From Oscillospiraceae bacterium (lineage in GTDB: Bacteria > Bacillota > Clostridia > Oscillospirales > Ruminococcaceae): DNA of 64,000 nucleotides. The notes below the pieces were generated by a model. It had not been told where the DNA came from. It did no database searches and saw nothing but the letters and a program-made list of their open reading frames with translations. Numbering within the stretch: position 1 is the first letter of the stretch; every line of letters begins with the position of its first letter. The translations under genes and the position numbers were made by a program. The stretch spans positions 42,282 to 106,281 of the forward strand of contig JAFQIY010000072.1 in the NCBI GenBank assembly GCA_017415165.1, written 5' to 3'. Positions 94 to 50,446 of the stretch are shown here, piece by piece.

Positions 94-203
94 TATAAAA
101 AGGTTATGTCGGTTGTCAATTATGTGTAAAAATATTGTTGAAAATCGGTTTTATGCTCTCGGACGTGTGCCCGAACACAAAACCATATGGGAGTAGAATA
201 ATT

Positions 204-1892
204 ATGAGCAAAATATGCAGCGAGCTTTACAGGGATTTCTTTTACAAAATCAATGGTATGACATTTGAAATGGACGAATTTATTTCAAAAGTCAGCGGGG
301 CAATGCCTGAAATTGCACAGGTGCTTGAAATCGGATGTTGTGCAGAAACTTTTATCGCTCCTGAAAACCCATTCAATCTTAATGGAATTAATCAATCGGT
401 GACATTCTATAAACATCCTGAAGGATATGATGAACACCCTGAGACTTTCGTTTTTCATACAGGCGAGGGCGGAAGCCTGAGTATATCTTTCTATCCGAAA
501 AAGGGGCATATCTGGAATGAAGCTGAGCTTTCAGATATTTCTTTTATAGCTGAAAACCTTTTCATAATCGGCGGCAGAGTTCAGATGCTGAGCGTGCTGA
601 AAAAAGTCAGCATTACCGATATAGGTACAGGTGCTTCGAATATGAGCGGGCTTGGTATGCACGCTGAACAGCTTTTGGAATCAGGTGCTTTCAAGGATTA
701 TGCAGTATTTTTCATTAATCTGAAAAATTTCAAATTCATAAATCAGAGTGTTGGCGAAAGAAAAGCCGATTTTATCATTAGGGATTATGCTAAAAAGCTT
801 CTGAATTATATAAACGACGATGAGAAGCTGGCACGTCCCGGAGGAGACAATTTCTGTGCAATAATAAAGAAAGAACGTGTTGATGATTTCCTTGAATTCA
901 TTTCAGGTATATCCTTTGAGGTTGAGGCAGCAGGAGAAAAACGTATCGTAAACGTTAATTCCAGAGCAGGTGTATATATGGTAAATGAAGGTGACCCGAT
1001 AGTGGTTGCTTTTAACGCTGCTTCTACGGCTCTGAATATTGCCAAGACATCCGGACGCGGTGATGTAATCCGTTTCAAGGCAGATATGCTTGATAAAACG
1101 ATAAAGGCAAATGAAATTTCATCTGTTTTCCCTGACGCACTGATAAGAGAGGAATTTGCAGTTTATTATCAGCCTAAGGTCGGACTTTCTGATAATTCTC
1201 TTTGCGGTTGTGAGGCACTTACCCGCTGGATAAGAAACGGTAAGATTATTTCCCCTGCAGATTTTATTCCTGTTCTTGAACGTGAAGGAACAATATGCCG
1301 TCTTGACTTTTACGTGCTGGACAAGGTATGCGCTGACATAAAGCGCTGGCTTGATATGGGACTTGTTCCTGTCAGGGTTTCAACAAACTTTTCAAAGCTT
1401 CATCTTCACAATGAGGATTTTGCCGATAGAATTATCGGAATAATAAACAAGCACGGAATAGACCCGTCGCTTATTGAAGTAGAGCTTACAGAGTCGTCAG
1501 GTTATGAGGATTACGAAGCGCTGGCTGAATTTGTAAGAAAAATGAAAAGCTATGGTGTAAGCACTTCTATTGATGATTTCGGCACGGGATACAGCTCGCT
1601 TAATCTGCTTAAAGACCTTGATGTTGATATTATCAAGCTTGACAAGTCATTCCTTGATAATCTCGGGGATGAAAAGAAATCTGACGAAGTTGTAATTCGA
1701 CATATTGTAAATATGGTAAATGAACTCGATATGAAAGTTGTTGCCGAGGGCGTGGAAACGAATGTGCAGGCTGATTTGCTGGAGAATTTCAGCTGCAGTA
1801 TGGCACAGGGTTATCTGTTTGACAAGCCGCTGCCGTGCAGTGAATTTGAAAAACGTCTCAGGTCAGGACGAGTTTATCAGGGTGTAAGATGA
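204..1892 (+). CDS. Degenerate GGDEF / intact EAL protein (predicted c-di-GMP phosphodiesterase)
   Basis: The start at 204 is preferred to an in-frame ATG at 135 because a GGGAG-type ribosome site sits just upstream; this gives 562 residues. There is no signal peptide or membrane segment. The first ~145 residues are an unassigned cytosolic sensor-like region, followed by a GGDEF domain whose active-site loop reads GGDNF, so cyclase activity is unlikely. The C-terminal EAL domain keeps CEALTRW, the Asn of STNFS, the Glu of ELTES, DDFGTG, the Lys of IIKLDKSF and AEGVET, so c-di-GMP hydrolysis is predicted. The same architecture recurs at 56096-57763. The GH5 gene follows 25 bp later and is probably cotranscribed. 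The domain assignment is secure; the input signal is unknown. Confidence 0.93.
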   Translation: MSKICSELYRDFFYKINGMTFEMDEFISKVSGAMPEIAQVLEIGCCAETFIAPENPFNLNGINQSVTFYKHPEGYDEHPETFVFHTGEGGSLSISFYPKKGHIWNEAELSDISFIAENLFIIGGRVQMLSVLKKVSITDIGTGASNMSGLGMHAEQLLESGAFKDYAVFFINLKNFKFINQSVGERKADFIIRDYAKKLLNYINDDEKLARPGGDNFCAIIKKERVDDFLEFISGISFEVEAAGEKRIVNVNSRAGVYMVNEGDPIVVAFNAASTALNIAKTSGRGDVIRFKADMLDKTIKANEISSVFPDALIREEFAVYYQPKVGLSDNSLCGCEALTRWIRNGKIISPADFIPVLEREGTICRLDFYVLDKVCADIKRWLDMGLVPVRVSTNFSKLHLHNEDFADRIIGIINKHGIDPSLIEVELTESSGYEDYEALAEFVRKMKSYGVSTSIDDFGTGYSSLNLLKDLDVDIIKLDKSFLDNLGDEKKSDEVVIRHIVNMVNELDMKVVAEGVETNVQADLLENFSCSMAQGYLFDKPLPCSEFEKRLRSGRVYQGVR

Positions 1893-1917: not shown

Positions 1918-3033
1918 ATGAAAAAAGCTGTGATTTTATTGTTGATGTGCGCAATGCTGACAGGCTGTGAAACAGGTGCCGCTTCTGATGTATCAGTGCA
2001 GACAACTGAGCAGATTACGGTAACTGCTGCTGAAACCATTTCCATAGCCGATGAAGCTTCTGCTGAAGCAACTCAGAAAGCAACGGAAATCTCTGCTGAG
2101 GAAACAACCAAAACCACGGAGGTTTCAGAAACCGAAAAAACAGAAAGCACTCCCGTTGCATACTACGGCGAGATAATTACAGACGGAAATAAGCTTGTGG
2201 GAAAGAACACCGGTGAAACTGTCCGTGTTACAGGAATGAGCTTCTTCTGGAGCAACTGGTCGCAGAAATATTATACCGCTGATTATGTGGATTATCTTGT
2301 GGACGATTACAACTGTGAGATAGTGCGCTGTTCATACGGCGTGCAGGATAATGGTGTGCCCCACGACAAATCCTGCGAGCCGCTTATCGAGGACGTAATT
2401 GAACAGGCTATCGAAAGAGGCGTCTATGTAATTGTTGACTGGCATTCTCACGGTGCACACAATAATCCCGATGAGGCAATTGCTTATTTTGAGCAGCTTG
2501 CGGAAAAATACGGAAGCTATGACAATGTCATTTTTGAAATCTATAATGAGCCTACGCAGGTCAGCTGGGATACTGTAAAAGCATACGCTGAAAAGGTTAT
2601 TCCTGCAATAAGAAAGTATTCGGACAATCTTGTTATTGTAGGCTCACCGACCTGGTCGCAGGACGTACTTTTAGCGGCTGATAATCCTGTCAACGGCGAA
2701 AATATCGCGTATACACTCCACTTCTATGCAGGTACTCATAAGCAGTGGCTCAGGGATAATGCTGATAAGGCGCTTGAAAAGGGAATTCCGCTTTTTGTTA
2801 CCGAGTGGGGCAGCGTAAATGCAGACGGAAACGGAAGCATTGACAGGACTTCTACCGAGGAATGGTTTGAGTGGATGGACAAGAACAATATTTCAAGCTG
2901 TAACTGGGCAGTAAACGACAAGGACGAGGGCTCAAGTATTTTTAAACAGGACAGCATCCTGAGCGAAACGGGTAAGTACATAATGGAGCTTATCCGTGAA
3001 AGAACTGAAAATGCCGAATGGCGTGGCAATTAA
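1918..3033 (+). CDS. GH5 family endoglucanase-type lipoprotein
   Basis: This 371-residue protein begins with a lipoprotein signal (MKKAVILLLM, lipobox LTGC, acylated Cys17). A Thr/Glu/Ser-rich linker runs to about residue 80, then a compact GH5 (beta/alpha)8 catalytic domain. The general acid lies in IYNEPT (Glu211) and the nucleophile in FVTEWGS (Glu296); the conserved His is in VDWHSH. The arrangement fits GH5 subfamily 2 endo-beta-1,4-glucanases (family knowledge). It would be anchored on the outer face of the membrane. The ribosome site GGAGGAG lies just before the ATG. Cotranscription with the EAL protein upstream is unusual and might tie surface glycan cutting to c-di-GMP state, which is inference only. 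Confidence 0.92.
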   Translation: MKKAVILLLMCAMLTGCETGAASDVSVQTTEQITVTAAETISIADEASAEATQKATEISAEETTKTTEVSETEKTESTPVAYYGEIITDGNKLVGKNTGETVRVTGMSFFWSNWSQKYYTADYVDYLVDDYNCEIVRCSYGVQDNGVPHDKSCEPLIEDVIEQAIERGVYVIVDWHSHGAHNNPDEAIAYFEQLAEKYGSYDNVIFEIYNEPTQVSWDTVKAYAEKVIPAIRKYSDNLVIVGSPTWSQDVLLAADNPVNGENIAYTLHFYAGTHKQWLRDNADKALEKGIPLFVTEWGSVNADGNGSIDRTSTEEWFEWMDKNNISSCNWAVNDKDEGSSIFKQDSILSETGKYIMELIRERTENAEWRGN

Positions 3034-3046
3034 TATCTGAATAAGA

Positions 3047-3081
3047 GGAAGCTTTACCTGAGGGTAAGGCTTCTTTGTTTA
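3047..3081 (+). terminator. Rho-independent terminator after GH5
   Basis: The hairpin GAAGCTTTACC / GGTAAGGCTTC with a short loop is followed by a T-rich tract. It separates the EAL-GH5 operon from the flagellin promoter. Confidence 0.85.
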
Positions 3082-3121: not shown

Positions 3122-3148
3122 TAAAGTTTTTTGTGGATTTGCCGATAA
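3122..3148 (+). promoter_or_regulatory. sigma-28 (SigD/FliA) flagellar promoter
   Basis: TAAA at 3122-3125, exactly 15 nt, then GCCGATAA at 3141-3148 is a perfect match to the sigma-28 consensus TAAA-N15-GCCGATAA. It lies 46 bp before the flagellin ATG and implies that this genome encodes a flagellar sigma factor elsewhere. No sigma-A promoter is evident in the gap. Confidence 0.93.
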
Positions 3149-3193
3149 ATATATTGTAAGTTTGTTATTAATTCAGGAAAGGAGGAAGCTGAA

Positions 3194-6100
3194 ATGACCG
3201 TTACTAATTTCAGAGGTGCGGATTTTCTCGTTAACAGAAACAAGAAAACAAATTCCAAGCTCCAGAAATCCCTCGAAAAGCTTGCAAGCGGATATCAGGT
3301 TAACCGTGCTGCTGACGATGCGGCAGGGCTTGCTGTTTCGGAAAAAATGCGGGGAATTATTGCAGGTCTTGACCAGGGCGTCAAGAACCTTAATGACGGC
3401 ATCAGCTATCTCCATTCCGTTGACGGTTCCGCACAGGAAATACATAATATCGTTCACCGCCTTGAAACAATTGCTGTTCAGGCGGCTAACGGCACTTATG
3501 ACAGCATCGACAGAGGTGCTCTCGACCTTGAATATCAGCAGCTTCTTGAGGAAATCGGTCAGATTACCGATACCTCCCATTTCAACGGACTTCCTCTTTT
3601 TGAAAAGCACCTTGAGTCCTACGGTCTTAACGAGGGCGTAGTTGTGCACGATAAAGCTGTTGTCGTAAACGGTCTTAATATGCCTCTTGTTATCGGATAT
3701 ACTCTCGATGACCAGCAGAAGGAATACACAATCAATGTTCCTTACGGCACATACAGCGCTGAGGAGCTTGCTGATATAATTGATACAGAGCTTTACGAAA
3801 AAGTTCCTAACCTTATTATCGGCGTAAATGAAAACAGAGAATTTACAATCCAGTCCGAGCCCGGCAAAATCGACTATGTAGGCGGTCCCGGTGCAACCCT
3901 TTTCTATGACGCAACAATCGGCTCAGAGAGCGGTTACCTCCTTGGTGTAACAACCTTTGTGCACGAAAACGCAAAGCTTGAAATCTTCACAGGCGAAAAC
4001 GACGTTATGTCCTTCCGTCTTGGCGACAGCGATACTATCCATTCAATTACTCTTGATGCAGGCAAATATACACGAGATGAGCTTATCGACCATATGAACG
4101 CTAAGTTTAATGCATCAGGTATTCCGGGCGATATCAAGGCAGTTCCTGAAACAAATGCACAAGGCGGTATGATTATCGGTATTGCCTGCAAGGAAACAAT
4201 TACAGGTCTGACAGGCAACTTCCTTAAAATGGATAATAAATCCTCTCCGATTTACGATATTGCAAACTATGGCTATACAAATAATACCCAGTCTGTACTT
4301 ACAGGTAAAAAGGTTATCCCTGTAAATACCGAAATCGTAAGAGGCAGAAATGAATATTTTACCCTCGACCTCAGCTGGTATGGTGCAAATGATGCAGCCG
4401 AAACACGCAGAGTGCAGATTAATCTTCTCGATAACTCGGAAAATGAAAGAACTTACCCAAATCCTTCCGACCTTGCAGCAAGAATTAACGAACAGCTTGG
4501 GGATATTCCTTTTGAAGCGTCAATCAGTTCCTCAGGAACTCTTGTAATCAAATCCGACCAGTACGGCGACAAGTGTAAGATTGACCTCGTTGAAAGCCGT
4601 GCACCAAGCGGACATATGGTTTATGACCTTTTTGACAAGGGTACTCTCAATAAGCTTAATCCGTCCGTAACAACATCTTCTTTCCGCCCTGCAAGCCTTA
4701 CAGCAAATAAAAACCTCGGCAGCTCAATTGAAGTTCCTGCCAACGAAAATGAGCTTGTTTTCACGGTTGCAACCGACAGCGGAAACAAGACTATGTCCGT
4801 AACAGTTCCTCAGGGGACATACACAGCAGGTTCTCTCCAGAATGCGCTTAACAATCAGGTTGCGGCAAATTATCCCGACCTTTCCTCAAAGCTTGAATTT
4901 AAAGTAGGAAGCACAATCACACTTTCAGCAATCGAATACAGCGGTGCAGATATCAAGTCCTTCTCAGTTTCTTCCTCATCAAGCGGTTATGCAAACCTTA
5001 TCGGCGGCGTTTACTATACAGATAATTACACCATTAATCAGGGCAGCGAGAAAACCTACGCAAGCGGCTCAGGAACAATGCCGTCAGGTCAGCCAGCGGT
5101 TTCTTCCACAGCAGGTGAAACCACTGATGTTGTTACATATTCAAATCAGGTAACAACAAATGCTCAGATTACACAGGATTATATCATTTACAGCAGCATT
5201 AGTCCGTCCATCAAGAACGGTTATCAGGTTGAGTACGATGACAGCGAGTCAATCATCGGTGACGAGAGAATTGAAAAGTTCCCTGCAACTATGACTATGG
5301 CAGGTGCTCTTACCCAGTTTACAGCAGCAGGAAAATCTCTCAAGGACATCAATCTTGTTCTTTCTGTAACAGATACAACAGGTTCAACAGCTTTCAATAT
5401 CACAATTCCTAAGGGCTCAACAAAGGATGAAGCTATTGCTGCAATCAATAATGGGCTTAACGGCAAGGCTGCAGCAAGGGCTGACGGCAATAACCTTGTT
5501 GTAACAACAACCGAAAAGGGCGATGGTGTACAGATTGCAACAGGCAGCTGCTCAATGGCAAATTCCGCACGCAAGAATACTATTGCGTCAAGAACAGACG
5601 CAGTTGTGGACGAAACTCACAACAGAGTTTATGTACCGTCCTCAATGACAATTCCGAATGCTGCTTCACAGCTTCCGTATACAGTTGACAGTTCAAACAA
5701 TAAGTTTGTTTTCAAGGCAGGTGCAACAACCTACAATCTTACCCTTACAGGCGACACATATACATCCGTTGCGGCAATTGCCAATGAGCTTAATGCAAGA
5801 ATTGCAGAAGCTGACGGCGGCAATCCCAAGACAACTGTTTCCGTGGGAAGCAGCGGCAAGTCCCTTGTTTTCAAAGGACCACTCAAGGAAAGCGGTTCAT
5901 TTACAATTGACACAGCAAAAACTACCTGCAATATTTATAAAACCAAAAATGTAAAGGAAACAGCAGGTAACCCGAATTATAATCCTGCAACAGGAAAAAT
6001 CGAGGAACCTGCTTCCGTTACCGCCGCAGGCTTTGACTCCCATTTCCCTATGACAGTTGATTCATCTAACAATACTATAACATTTACTTATAAGTCACCA

Positions 6101-8272
6101 ACCGAAACCAGAAATGTGACAATTGTTATTCCTGACAAAACATATAATTCCGCTTCTGAATGTGCACAGGCAATCAGCAACGTTGTCAGCAATGACCCCG
6201 CACTCAAGGACATTATCTCTGCAAGCTATGCATCAGGCAAGGGACTTACCTTCACTACCAAGAACGGCGGTAAAGGCTACTCCCTCAGCAACTTCGGCGG
6301 CACAGCAGGCTTTGACAAGTATATCTCCAAGACAAGCGCAGGCAGCAACGGTACAATTGATACAACAACAAATAAGGTTTACTATCCTGCAACAATCACA
6401 AACAATAAGTTCAACACCCTTTTCAGCGGTGACGGTCTTGAAGTCAATGCCAATAACAAGCACGTTGCCCTCACAATCAACGGCAATACAGTTGAATTTG
6501 ACCTTACAGAGGGAGATTATGTGGGCACAGCAGGTATGAACAGCCTTGTTTCCCAGCTTCAGACAGGCTTTGCAGGCAGCGGCGTGACAGTAGCGGCTTC
6601 AGCTTCAACCCTCACAATTACAACCGATGCGAAGGGTACTTCCGCAACAATTTCAATGAGCGGTGCAAATACTTCTGAGGTTTTCAGCAAGTCCAACAAC
6701 GTTGCAAAGGAAAGCACTGTTTCAAGAAATGACAGCAGATGTACAATTACTTCGAGAAATAATATTTCAAGCATAACAATTGAGAATTATAACAACAAGA
6801 TGTCCTTTGATTACGCTACAGATGTAAACGGCAGCCTTGTTACGGGCAGAGCGGAAATTACCGTTCCTGCAGGAACTTACACAGCCGACACACTGAAAAC
6901 AGCACTCCAGACTGCTATTGACAACGCTCTCGGCAGCGACCAGCTTGTTGTTTCAAACAATAACGGAACAATCTCAATCAAGGGTGCAACCCCTTCCGAT
7001 ACACGCAAAATCAGCAATTTCAGCGGACGTCTTTTCGATAAGGTGTTCCAGAATGTAAGCTATACAGGTGTAAGCGTTCATACCGAAAAGAATGGTACTT
7101 CCCTCGGCAGTACGCTGTCATATATTGTCGGCAGAAATAGCCTTGAACCATCAGGTAAGGATGAACAGCTTTCAGGCAAGGACGTTTGTATCTACACCGA
7201 CCTTAACGACACAATGATTTTTGACCTTAACTACGGCGGACAGACTCACACCATCGAGTTTAAAATTCCTGCGGGTGATTACACCAAAAAGGAACTTGCA
7301 GATGCAATTGAACAGAAGGGCAGAGAAGAATTTGCGAAGATTACCGACTACACAGGCAACAGCTTCCCTGACGATTTCTTCAATGCATCAATCGGTCTTT
7401 CCGAGCTTGGAGTAGCTGAAAATAATACAGGTATTTCCAGTTCCGATAAGCTCGTTCTCTGGTGCAAGCTTCCCGATGACGGAAGAAACGGCAAGATTAC
7501 AGCAATTATCGACGGTATCAGAGGCAATTCCGCATACAGAGTTTTCTACGACGCAACACGTTCTCCTCAGCCGTCAACATTCTACGGTAAGCCTGACCTT
7601 TCCGACGGTATCGTAATCAATGATGAAAACGATACTCTCGGTTTTGAGCTTGACGGTGTACCTGCAAGCGTTGATATTCCTCACGGCGAATATACAGTGG
7701 AAGAACTTGCCGAACAGCTAAACAACAGCTTTTCTGCTGCAAGCTCAGACGTAAGAGTAGGTCACCGTAACGGCAGAATAATGTTCTATACCATTGAAAA
7801 CGGTGATTTTGTGTTCAATAAGTTCACAGGCAGCGCTGCAAATGATATTATCTACGGCGGCGAAAGCAGAGATGAGGATACTGATATCGGTATCCATAAG
7901 GGTCGCCGTACAGATGATTATATTATGTACGAAAAGACACGCGTTGACGAACACCTTATGAGAATTAATACAACAGGTGTAACAACTGCCGAAAGAGCTT
8001 CAAAGGCAATCAACCGTCTTAACCTTGCAAATGATTACCTTTCCAAGCAGCGTGCAGTAAGCGGTGCTTATGAAAACCGTTCCGAGCACGCACTTGCAAA
8101 CCGTCAGAACTATATCGAAAACCTTTCTGCGGCTGAATCGCAAATCCGTGATGCGGATATGGCAAAGCAGTATGCTGATTATACCAAATATCAGATTCTC
8201 AATCAGACACAGAATAACATTTTCGGTCACTTCCGTAATCATCAGCAATCAGTGCTTAATATTATCGCATAA
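3194..8272 (+). CDS. hag: Giant flagellin with repeated outer-domain modules
   Basis: 1692 residues, against about 270-500 for common flagellins. Residues 1 to ~150 are a canonical flagellin D0/D1 N-terminus (SLEKLASGYQVNRAADDAAG and the later TDTSHFNGLPLF). The last ~100 residues are the matching C-terminus (ERASKAINRLN to NQTQNNIFGHF). As expected for type III export there is no signal peptide. The ~1430 residues between form the surface-exposed part and consist of about eleven degenerate copies of one module: a beta-strand ending VPxGTY, a helix such as LADIIDTEL, then a strand pair such as NLVVTTTEKG. The module resembles the flagellin hook IN motif (family knowledge, not searched). The ribosome site is AAAGGAGGAAG. 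The gene is monocistronic, with its own sigma-28 promoter and terminator. No other flagellar gene lies in the window. Confidence 0.95.
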   Translation: MTVTNFRGADFLVNRNKKTNSKLQKSLEKLASGYQVNRAADDAAGLAVSEKMRGIIAGLDQGVKNLNDGISYLHSVDGSAQEIHNIVHRLETIAVQAANGTYDSIDRGALDLEYQQLLEEIGQITDTSHFNGLPLFEKHLESYGLNEGVVVHDKAVVVNGLNMPLVIGYTLDDQQKEYTINVPYGTYSAEELADIIDTELYEKVPNLIIGVNENREFTIQSEPGKIDYVGGPGATLFYDATIGSESGYLLGVTTFVHENAKLEIFTGENDVMSFRLGDSDTIHSITLDAGKYTRDELIDHMNAKFNASGIPGDIKAVPETNAQGGMIIGIACKETITGLTGNFLKMDNKSSPIYDIANYGYTNNTQSVLTGKKVIPVNTEIVRGRNEYFTLDLSWYGANDAAETRRVQINLLDNSENERTYPNPSDLAARINEQLGDIPFEASISSSGTLVIKSDQYGDKCKIDLVESRAPSGHMVYDLFDKGTLNKLNPSVTTSSFRPASLTANKNLGSSIEVPANENELVFTVATDSGNKTMSVTVPQGTYTAGSLQNALNNQVAANYPDLSSKLEFKVGSTITLSAIEYSGADIKSFSVSSSSSGYANLIGGVYYTDNYTINQGSEKTYASGSGTMPSGQPAVSSTAGETTDVVTYSNQVTTNAQITQDYIIYSSISPSIKNGYQVEYDDSESIIGDERIEKFPATMTMAGALTQFTAAGKSLKDINLVLSVTDTTGSTAFNITIPKGSTKDEAIAAINNGLNGKAAARADGNNLVVTTTEKGDGVQIATGSCSMANSARKNTIASRTDAVVDETHNRVYVPSSMTIPNAASQLPYTVDSSNNKFVFKAGATTYNLTLTGDTYTSVAAIANELNARIAEADGGNPKTTVSVGSSGKSLVFKGPLKESGSFTIDTAKTTCNIYKTKNVKETAGNPNYNPATGKIEEPASVTAAGFDSHFPMTVDSSNNTITFTYKSPTETRNVTIVIPDKTYNSASECAQAISNVVSNDPALKDIISASYASGKGLTFTTKNGGKGYSLSNFGGTAGFDKYISKTSAGSNGTIDTTTNKVYYPATITNNKFNTLFSGDGLEVNANNKHVALTINGNTVEFDLTEGDYVGTAGMNSLVSQLQTGFAGSGVTVAASASTLTITTDAKGTSATISMSGANTSEVFSKSNNVAKESTVSRNDSRCTITSRNNISSITIENYNNKMSFDYATDVNGSLVTGRAEITVPAGTYTADTLKTALQTAIDNALGSDQLVVSNNNGTISIKGATPSDTRKISNFSGRLFDKVFQNVSYTGVSVHTEKNGTSLGSTLSYIVGRNSLEPSGKDEQLSGKDVCIYTDLNDTMIFDLNYGGQTHTIEFKIPAGDYTKKELADAIEQKGREEFAKITDYTGNSFPDDFFNASIGLSELGVAENNTGISSSDKLVLWCKLPDDGRNGKITAIIDGIRGNSAYRVFYDATRSPQPSTFYGKPDLSDGIVINDENDTLGFELDGVPASVDIPHGEYTVEELAEQLNNSFSAASSDVRVGHRNGRIMFYTIENGDFVFNKFTGSAANDIIYGGESRDEDTDIGIHKGRRTDDYIMYEKTRVDEHLMRINTTGVTTAERASKAINRLNLANDYLSKQRAVSGAYENRSEHALANRQNYIENLSAAESQIRDADMAKQYADYTKYQILNQTQNNIFGHFRNHQQSVLNIIA
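3725..7740 (+). repeat. About eleven coding repeats in the flagellin outer domain
   Basis: Copies of a module with the signature [I/V]xVPxGxYTxxxLxxxL begin near residues 178, 283, 404, 532, 731, 846, 973, 1097, 1219, 1353 and 1492, so the period is roughly 105-140 residues; the wider step 532-731 may hide one more degenerate copy. Examples are VPYGTYSAEEL, VPQGTYTAGSL, VPAGTYTADTL and IPAGDYTKKEL. The repeats are clear in protein but divergent in DNA, so they are old duplications and not a fresh tandem array. Confidence 0.85.
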
Positions 8273-8274
8273 TA

Positions 8275-8312
8275 AAACAGTCTTTGATTAGCTTCAAAGA
8301 CTGTTTTTTCGT
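8275..8312 (+). terminator. Rho-independent terminator after giant flagellin
   Basis: AACAGTCTTTGA / TCAAAGACTGTT with a short loop, followed by six Ts. Confidence 0.93.
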
Positions 8313-49283: not shown

Positions 49284-49300
49284 ATTAAGGAGAGATTATT

Positions 49301-50446
49301 ATGAAGCTTACAAAAATTCTGTCCGTAGCAATTGCGGCTGTGATGTGCCTTTCGGTTTTTACAGGCTGTGAAAAGAAGGCTGAATTCGGCGGCTCAATGC
49401 GTGATATTACAACAATGGAGCTTGTAAAGGAAATGGGCGTCGGCATCAATCTCGGCAACACCTTTGAAAGCGCAGGCAGCTGGATTGCACCAACGGGTGT
49501 AACAAGCTACGAAACAGGCTGGGGAAGTCCTATTATCACAAGAGAAATGATTACAGGCTATGCAGAGTGCGGATTTGGCGTGCTTCGTGTCCCTGTGGCG
49601 TGGTCAAATATGATGGGTGAGGACTACACAATCAACGCAACCTATCTTGCAAGAGTAAAGCAGGTTGTAGGCTGGGCACTTGAAGACGGAATGTATGTTA
49701 TCCTCAATATTCACTGGGATGGCGGCTGGTGGACAGATTTTGCCAACGATGACAAGAAGGCAGAATGTATGTACAAATACGAACGTATCTGGACACAGCT
49801 TACCGAAGCGTTCAATGATGATTACGGCGACCACCTTATGTTTGAGTCCCTCAACGAAGAAGGCGGCTGGGAGTCACTCTGGAACAGATACAGCAATCAG
49901 GGTGACAAGGAAAAGTCCTTTAACCTGCTTAACGAAATCAATCAGAAGTTTGTTGATATCGTAAGAGCATCAGGCGGCAACAACGCCGAGCGTCACCTCC
50001 TTATCGCAGGCTACAACACAGACTTTGACCTAACCTGCGACCCTCTCTATAAAATGCCGAACGACCCTGAAAACCGCTGCGCAGTATCCGTTCACTACTA
50101 TACACCATCCACATTTGCAATTCTTGAAGCAGATGCAGACTGGGGCAAGGCTCGTACTGAATGGGGTACAGATGCGGACTACGCTGAACTCAACAAGTAT
50201 ATGACAATGATGAAGGAAACCTACATCGATAAGGGTATCCCTGTAATTGTGGGCGAATTCGGCTGCTCAACAAGCAATAAAACTCCCGAAATGGTAAGAC
50301 TTTACCTGACTTCCGTATGTGAAGCCGCATACGATAACGGTCTCTGCCCTGTCCTCTGGGACATCACAGACGTGTTCTACAACCGTGAAGAAGCAAAGTT
50401 CATTGACCCTGAACTTCTTGAAGGACTTATGGCTGTAAAGGAGTAA
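49301..50446 (+). CDS. GH5 family cellulase-type lipoprotein (GH5_4-like)
   Basis: 381 residues. The lipobox is FTGC (Cys23) after a hydrophobic signal. The catalytic domain starts near residue 40 with MGVGINLGNTFE, then VPVAWSNMM, NIHWDGGWW, the acid in SLNEEGGWE (Glu186) and the nucleophile in IVGEFGCS (Glu319). The HWDGGWW stretch is typical of GH5 subfamily 4 xyloglucanases and endoglucanases (family knowledge). It would be displayed at the membrane surface and feed oligosaccharides to the cell. AAGGAGAG precedes the ATG; a strong terminator follows. Confidence 0.94.
   Translation: MKLTKILSVAIAAVMCLSVFTGCEKKAEFGGSMRDITTMELVKEMGVGINLGNTFESAGSWIAPTGVTSYETGWGSPIITREMITGYAECGFGVLRVPVAWSNMMGEDYTINATYLARVKQVVGWALEDGMYVILNIHWDGGWWTDFANDDKKAECMYKYERIWTQLTEAFNDDYGDHLMFESLNEEGGWESLWNRYSNQGDKEKSFNLLNEINQKFVDIVRASGGNNAERHLLIAGYNTDFDLTCDPLYKMPNDPENRCAVSVHYYTPSTFAILEADADWGKARTEWGTDADYAELNKYMTMMKETYIDKGIPVIVGEFGCSTSNKTPEMVRLYLTSVCEAAYDNGLCPVLWDITDVFYNREEAKFIDPELLEGLMAVKE

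Follow-up and report, generated by a model that had tools for sequence, protein, structure and literature searches.

A giant flagellin gene and its eleven modules

The 64 kb stretch of an Oscillospiraceae genome analyzed here (the window, held in the genome we call G000; other G numbers denote genomes of relatives, and L numbers loci within these genomes) carries at 3194..8272 (+) a gene for a giant flagellin, an open reading frame (ORF) whose length of 1692 residues (181.7 kDa) is confirmed by ORF calling and translation. The protein opens with a D0/D1 core (residues 1-148; 3194..3637 (+)), in which Flagellin_N (PF00669) matches residues 14-138 (1.6e-30; 106.4 bits, cut-off 26.6), and closes with a D1/D0 core (residues 1571-1692 plus stop codon; 7904..8272 (+)), in which Flagellin_C (PF00700) matches residues 1612-1690 (2.6e-13; 50.5 bits, cut-off 23). 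A whole-protein Pfam scan at E<=1 found no family between these two and no peptidase family, which sets the protein apart from flagellinolysins. Flagellin models rank first in NCBIfam (Hag, 3.8e-47) and FlgL far below (3.5e-18), none reaching its curated cut-off; flgL is present in G000 as a gene of its own, located between flgK and fliW, and the giant counts as a flagellin and not as FlgL. Its length passes the threshold for giant flagellins (>1000 residues; Thomson 2018, PMC6248924), and it exceeds the usual flagellin size more than threefold. The ends, which the initial annotation took for ordinary flagellin, are clearly flagellin, although the core is divergent and sits on a long stem in the tree described below.

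A putative sigma-28 (FliA/SigD) type promoter, TAAA-N15-GCCGATAA (3122..3148 (+)), ends 45 bases upstream of the ATG; the pattern, based on what we take to be the sigma-28 consensus, has its sole exact match in the 64 kb here, and at least one match arose in 4 of 100 shuffles. Upstream of the eleven-module genes of six relatives examined, a shorter pattern ending GCCGATA has strict matches in three (G001, G154, G341), a one-mismatch form in G241 and G017, and none in G232. A ribosome-binding site (AGGAGG, 3180..3185 (+), eight bases before the ATG at 3194) and a probable intrinsic terminator (stem-loop followed by a T run, 8277..8309 (+)) were recognized by eye, the latter being absent from the list of a consensus scan.

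Between the two cores, eleven modules (M1-M11) fill residues 149-1570, each 107-186 residues long, with boundaries set by eye. Each window module was scored with a hidden Markov model (HMM) built from the ten remaining modules in G000, G001 and G017, and each surpassed all 500 shuffles of itself, with 9.7-45.0 bits where the best shuffles reached 5.6-10.3. The array begins with M1 (149-255; 3638..3958 (+); 23.7 bits, 0/500 shuffles), whose closest partner is M11, and M2 (256-369; 3959..4300 (+); 22.3 bits, 0/500), and continues with the weakest copy, M3 (370-492; 4301..4669 (+)), where the margin is narrow (9.7 bits against a shuffle maximum of 6.5), and with M4 (493-678; 4670..5227 (+)), which has a long tail. 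M5 (679-799; 5228..5590 (+)) reaches 21.0 bits (0/500), while the G001 copy of this module scores 8.4 bits, less than the best M5 shuffle (9.9). M6 (800-919; 5591..5950 (+); 36.1 bits, 0/500) has its closest partner in M7 (920-1046; 5951..6331 (+); 45.0 bits, 0/500) at E 3.1e-11; M8 (1047-1166; 6332..6691 (+)), M9 (1167-1297; 6692..7084 (+)), M10 with its insertions (1298-1463; 7085..7582 (+); 34.8 bits, 0/500) and M11 (1464-1570; 7583..7903 (+); 35.4 bits, 0/500) complete the series. In profile-profile comparison with HHalign, 25 of the 55 pairs of modules scored above 50% probability, and none of the 110 controls in which modules were reversed did so; M3 is the only module lacking such a partner, its best reaching 28.4%. 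The earlier count of about eleven copies of one module is borne out by both comparisons, as eleven. The spacing given in that annotation needs correcting from 105-140 to 107-186 residues, M4 and M10 carrying long extras, and the VPxGTY motif assigned to each module is kept in part and not throughout.

Judged by their divergence the module copies are old, since they are 11-27% identical to M1 and no tandem array was found at the DNA level (one 9-base row only). Adjacent copies are not especially similar (permutation p 0.46). A mirror-symmetric order, suggested by the close pairs M1-M11, M2-M10, M4-M9 and M6-M7, was considered and set aside (permutation p 0.08 for mirror order and 0.046 for depth); with three statistics left uncorrected, it is only a hint of nested growth or layered packing.

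Predicted structure and domain family of the modules

An AlphaFold model, computed from an alignment of ten sequences, spans residues 260-1459, a fragment that covers M2-M10 and leaves M1 and M11 outside. The strand-strand-helix-strand-strand order is predicted in nine of nine modules, M3 included. Module cores mostly have a predicted local distance difference test score (pLDDT) of 70-90; the mean is 62.8, with 563 of 1200 residues at or above 70 and 352 of 1200 below 50, chiefly linkers, the tail of M4 and the far end of M10, whose C-terminal half is of low confidence. Because the repeat analysis and this shared core agree, the insert is neither unrepeated nor mostly disordered, which answers the structure-prediction check proposed with the initial annotation.

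Remote homology points to the modules being the flagellar D2 or 'hook IN' domain of FliD and flagellin. The search for Flagellin_IN (PF07196) that had been suggested supports this link in part: the family is absent from the whole-protein scan (E<=1), yet it is the one that most single modules match, in 7 of 66 modules including those of relatives. In the window it matches two of eleven, best M5 (0.008; 16.8 bits; profile positions 1-54 of 55), and none reaches the curated score of 22.7 bits, which the M5 of G154 passes at 25.4; among other M5 copies, that of G241 scores 13.7 bits and those of G001, G341 and G017 have no match. Against the PDB, a 66-row module profile has FliD as its top sequence matches, and a structural search ranks flagellin outer domains best with many FliD D2-D3 domains below them, so that the modeled modules share the fold of a solved D2-type domain. 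An 11-row module profile gave no flagellar match in the PDB, profile A4 (M1+M11) a single weak and unrelated one, and a PHROGs search one match at 1.5e-4, the rest scattered and weak. What distinguishes the giant is the number of units: FliD as found here (compare PF07196 and the D2-D3 structures 5h5t and 5fhy) holds one to few, and the match to the Vibrio cholerae flagellin outer domain (9n8a, 9n8h, 9n8g, 9p7r) spans about 100 residues of a 376-379-residue chain, whereas the giant has eleven.

Searches of other genomes with the module profile (E<=0.001 per genome over about 1,190 genome searches, for which about one chance match is expected) found a best match in FliD, flagellin, FlgL or FlgK in 25 of 33 matched genomes, an uncontrolled count. 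Several of these proteins were named by eye or with in-house HMMs rather than Pfam: FliD in G714, G913, G1105, G804, G986, G1138 and G1104, flagellin in G805, FlgL in G1130 and G843, and FlgK in G1045 and G955, the in-house FliD HMM also matching the G1045 ORF called FlgK. Best matches were non-flagellar in five of 33 (SpaA-repeat proteins in G364 and G638, a Cthe_2159 protein in G313, and others in G622, where the match is a frame overlapping another gene, and G1139), and single-module ORFs of 117-146 residues in a further three (G1126, G847, G993). The repeat unit links flagellin, FliD, FlgK and FlgL as users of one domain family.

FliD of the carriers' own family was considered as the donor of the modules and rejected, its homology being patchy, and no donor is named. 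The 66-row profile beats 100 of 100 shuffles in 5 of 10 FliD ORFs (carriers G000, G001, G341 and G380, plus G080); for the FliD of the remaining five carriers, between 1 and 40 of the 100 shuffles reach the same score, G241 and G295 behaving like random sequence.

Small proteins of 117-146 residues that consist of one module occur in three genomes belonging to one family (f93), at L165:1423-1773 (+), L168:2797-3234 (-) and L176:2620-3057 (-), the first of them downstream of fliD with one ORF between; they are possibly an unnamed flagellar accessory protein. A 131-residue one-module ORF in G1139 (L180:5063-5455 (+)) has nothing matched by the in-house FliD and flagellin HMMs in the surrounding 10 kb, and a 660-residue FlgL-like protein in G843 (L174:2112-4091 (-), named by eye) has three module matches.

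Conservation of the array across genera

A search of the genus found the module in three of 21 genomes, and the eleven-module protein is present in eight species of three genera (G000, G001, G017, G154, G232, G241, G295 and G341). The genes of G017 and G295 are each split over two contigs, the break cutting one module. As the module-counting HMM was trained on G000, G001 and G017, the other five species are independent cases. The closest relative contig with a name, JAFTWI010000100.1 (from an Oscillospiraceae metagenome-assembled genome of roe deer colon), matches the G017 gene. In a tree of D0/D1 cores, which left out G044 for want of a start motif, the six full-length giants form one clade on a long stem (support 100/99); the clade persists with 100/100 support when the tree is rebuilt without the ordinary flagellins of G080 and G154, truncated ORFs that lack the true C-terminal end, and again when G380 is also removed.

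G380, of another genus, encodes a 997-residue open frame with six detected modules (L096:4353-7343 (+)). As in the giant, Flagellin_N and Flagellin_C flank the same module type; unlike the giant, it has six modules, no sigma-28 match upstream, and other flagellins in its genome, and it is about 29% identical to the window protein where the two align best. The tree places it between the giants and ordinary flagellins, on a long branch with weak support (84/71). A 1241-residue flagellin of the same genus as the window (G011, L036:2516-6238 (-)) has a different insert (Beta_helix_3, 1.9e-5, below the cut-off) and no module matches.

Conservation of the middle region separates the giants from other flagellins. 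Over 15 pairs of the six full-length giants, median identity is 64% in the middle, 74% at the N-terminal end and 61% at the C-terminal end; among 16 other flagellins, compared in 112 pairs, it is 29%, 86% and 80.5%, respectively. Of these 16, one comes from genus g3 and the rest, the 1241-residue G011 protein included, from the same genus as the window. The outer array is 52-86% identical between genera, and the ratio of nonsynonymous to synonymous substitution rates (dN/dS) over the whole outer region is 0.078-0.138 in five comparisons. On these grounds the outer array is, by sequence, conserved under purifying selection and not hypervariable. According to the available part of Hu and Reeves 2020 (PMC7018530), flagellin outer forms are generally species-specific and their surface hypervariable, from which the conserved array of the giants is a departure.

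Identities of the giant and of FlhA disagree: G000 and G001 share 91% of FlhA and 66% of the giant, G241 and G341 91% and 55%, while G001 and G241 share 87% of both (FlhA of G000 and G017 is 97% identical). This mismatch suggests that the giant flagellin gene moved between genera, or that old paralogs were differently lost. Such apparent mobility would suit a reading in which the array shields the filament from phages or the immune system: the thick coat, which would bury the conserved core, would be kept to mask it and not for mechanics. Shields facing phages or antibodies usually diversify, whereas the outer region here is held at dN/dS 0.08-0.14 and the same form recurs across genera, and we therefore consider this explanation very improbable.

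The proposed filament

Flagellar apparatus genes, whose absence would have undercut the initial annotation, are present in the genome, export, late-flagellar and chaperone genes all being found. One G000 cluster reads fliP-fliQ-fliR-flhB-flhA-sigma factor-two flgEFG-type genes-GH5-cheC-like, and a second flgM-flgN-flgK-flgL-DUF6470-fliW-csrA-fliD-fliS; FlhA and FliD are each found in nine of nine array carriers (the eight eleven-module species and G380). We propose, with a probability of roughly 0.7, that the giant is a working filament subunit whose eleven D2/hook-IN-type domains form a thick, probably structural coat suited to viscous gut contents. The chain would be exported unfolded via the flagellar type III system, with FliS and FliW presumably helping, and would fold under the FliD cap; its D0/D1 ends would polymerize in the usual way, and each subunit would project eleven small domains outward. 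Contacts between neighboring domains may stiffen the filament, which would help the cell to swim where the gut contents are viscous. The array is probably structural, and not a variable antigenic coat, because its copy number, order and sequence are kept across genera under purifying selection. A mechanical role can be argued from this conservation and from other species, where the available parts of two papers (PMC10256154, PMC8931119) describe outer domains as mattering for motility in viscous media.

A solid-cylinder estimate from volumes gives a minimum filament diameter of 24.7 nm. By the widths given in PMC6248924, Salmonella filaments (24 nm) and those of Bermanella (at least 30 nm) exceed their own minima by factors of 1.8 and 1.56, and by the same scaling the filament here might be about 38-45 nm thick.

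Several points weigh against this proposal. The diameter, obtained by scaling volumes, is a guess, and the thick domain-coated filament, although the most likely reading, is predicted from the gene and from models, of which the AlphaFold model, with a predicted template modeling score (pTM) of 0.27, leaves the arrangement of modules, and hence sheath or stiffening, unfixed. Selection is still stronger on the core (dN/dS 0.034-0.102) than on the array, one outer part (the M4-M5 overlap, G000-G017b) reaches 0.229, and two of the 112 ordinary pairs share 60% and 75% of their middles. Purifying selection is, moreover, compatible with any conserved function, adhesion included. Finally, G001, G154, G232 and G380, four of nine array carriers, have further flagellins, and the G000 assembly, with 75 contigs and a completeness of 93%, may have missed a second one.

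These last points would also fit a minor or special-purpose flagellin, with the main filament built from an ordinary flagellin lost from the assembly. We regard this as quite unlikely, as a consensus promoter of the sigma-28 type precedes the gene and no flagellin besides the giant was found in five carriers: PF00669 matches only the giant and the FlgL of the fliD operon in G000, and in G241 (rated 100% complete), G017, G295 and G341 its one match besides the giant is an ORF with a low score on the fliD contig.

The domain-coated working filament has parallels in the Oceanospirillales, where, according to the available part of Thomson 2018 (PMC6248924), the giants of Bermanella (1020 residues; B. 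marisrubri Q1N2Y3) and Oleibacter (1190 residues; O. marinus) have filament widths of at least 30 nm and no other predicted flagellin. They likewise have ordinary ends, a huge middle grown by internal domain duplication, and the position of sole flagellin beside a FlgL-like protein, with a thick filament expected here too; they differ in having two DE regions in tandem, to which some genera add a DX insert, whereas the window giant has eleven copies of one module in 1692 residues and belongs to gut Oscillospiraceae-type clostridia. The claim of novelty in the initial annotation requires narrowing, as giant flagellins are not confined to gamma-proteobacteria: the same part of the paper already records Firmicutes (Eubacterium plexicaudatum) and internal duplication. 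It describes no such eleven-module array for the Firmicutes giants it lists, and a literature search of partial coverage returned no eleven-module flagellin and no giant flagellins in Oscillospiraceae, so the array itself appears to be unreported. What appears new is an array fixed at eleven domains and kept across genera by purifying selection; giant flagellins and the hook-IN domain are already known.

A more far-reaching proposition joins several parts: a hypervariable flagellin surface turned fixed and essential, with exactly eleven hook-IN domains conserved in order and sequence and whole-gene transfer between genera; a closed sheath of contacting domains about 40 nm across; and a flagellin that is the sole filament protein in some species. 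That all of these hold together is tentative, at somewhat short of even odds. The conservation of the array across genera (52-86%, dN/dS near 0.1) would make a clean test of the mechanical role of outer domains, at 182 kDa the flagellin puts both export channel and FliD cap to a severe test, and a filament with eleven domains on every subunit would be an unusually heavily decorated object for cryo-electron microscopy.

Neighboring genes

A GH5 cellulase gene with a lipoprotein-like start (1918-3033 (+), 194 bits) is followed, after 160 bases, by the giant flagellin gene. Because a terminator-like stem (3045-3076) stands between the two, the flagellin gene is probably a transcription unit separate from GH5. 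Such a neighbor might bring to mind an array that is chiefly an adhesive or carbohydrate-binding brush, holding a fiber- or mucus-associated cell to its substrate, with thickness as a by-product. Yet the hits that could speak for it do not rise above chance, the modules resemble FliD and flagellin D2 domains better, and among the loci compared the GH5 gene adjoins the flagellin gene only in G000 and G017, with the terminator in between; we consider a brush unlikely, and prefer the structural coat of a working filament. Among the same loci, only that of G017 again has the genes that flank the window flagellin next to it, with glnA on the other side; in G241 and G295 one flagellin neighbor resembles a distant window ORF (49289-50443; 57% and 40%). 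No Rfam match was found anywhere in the window. A second GH5 cellulase gene of G000 (L151:6126-7559 (-), G000:C33; Pfam 3.9e-60) lies in the export operon between the cheC-like and flgEFG-type genes, and a GGDEF-EAL protein is encoded at 135-1892 (+) in the window, two genes upstream of the flagellin.
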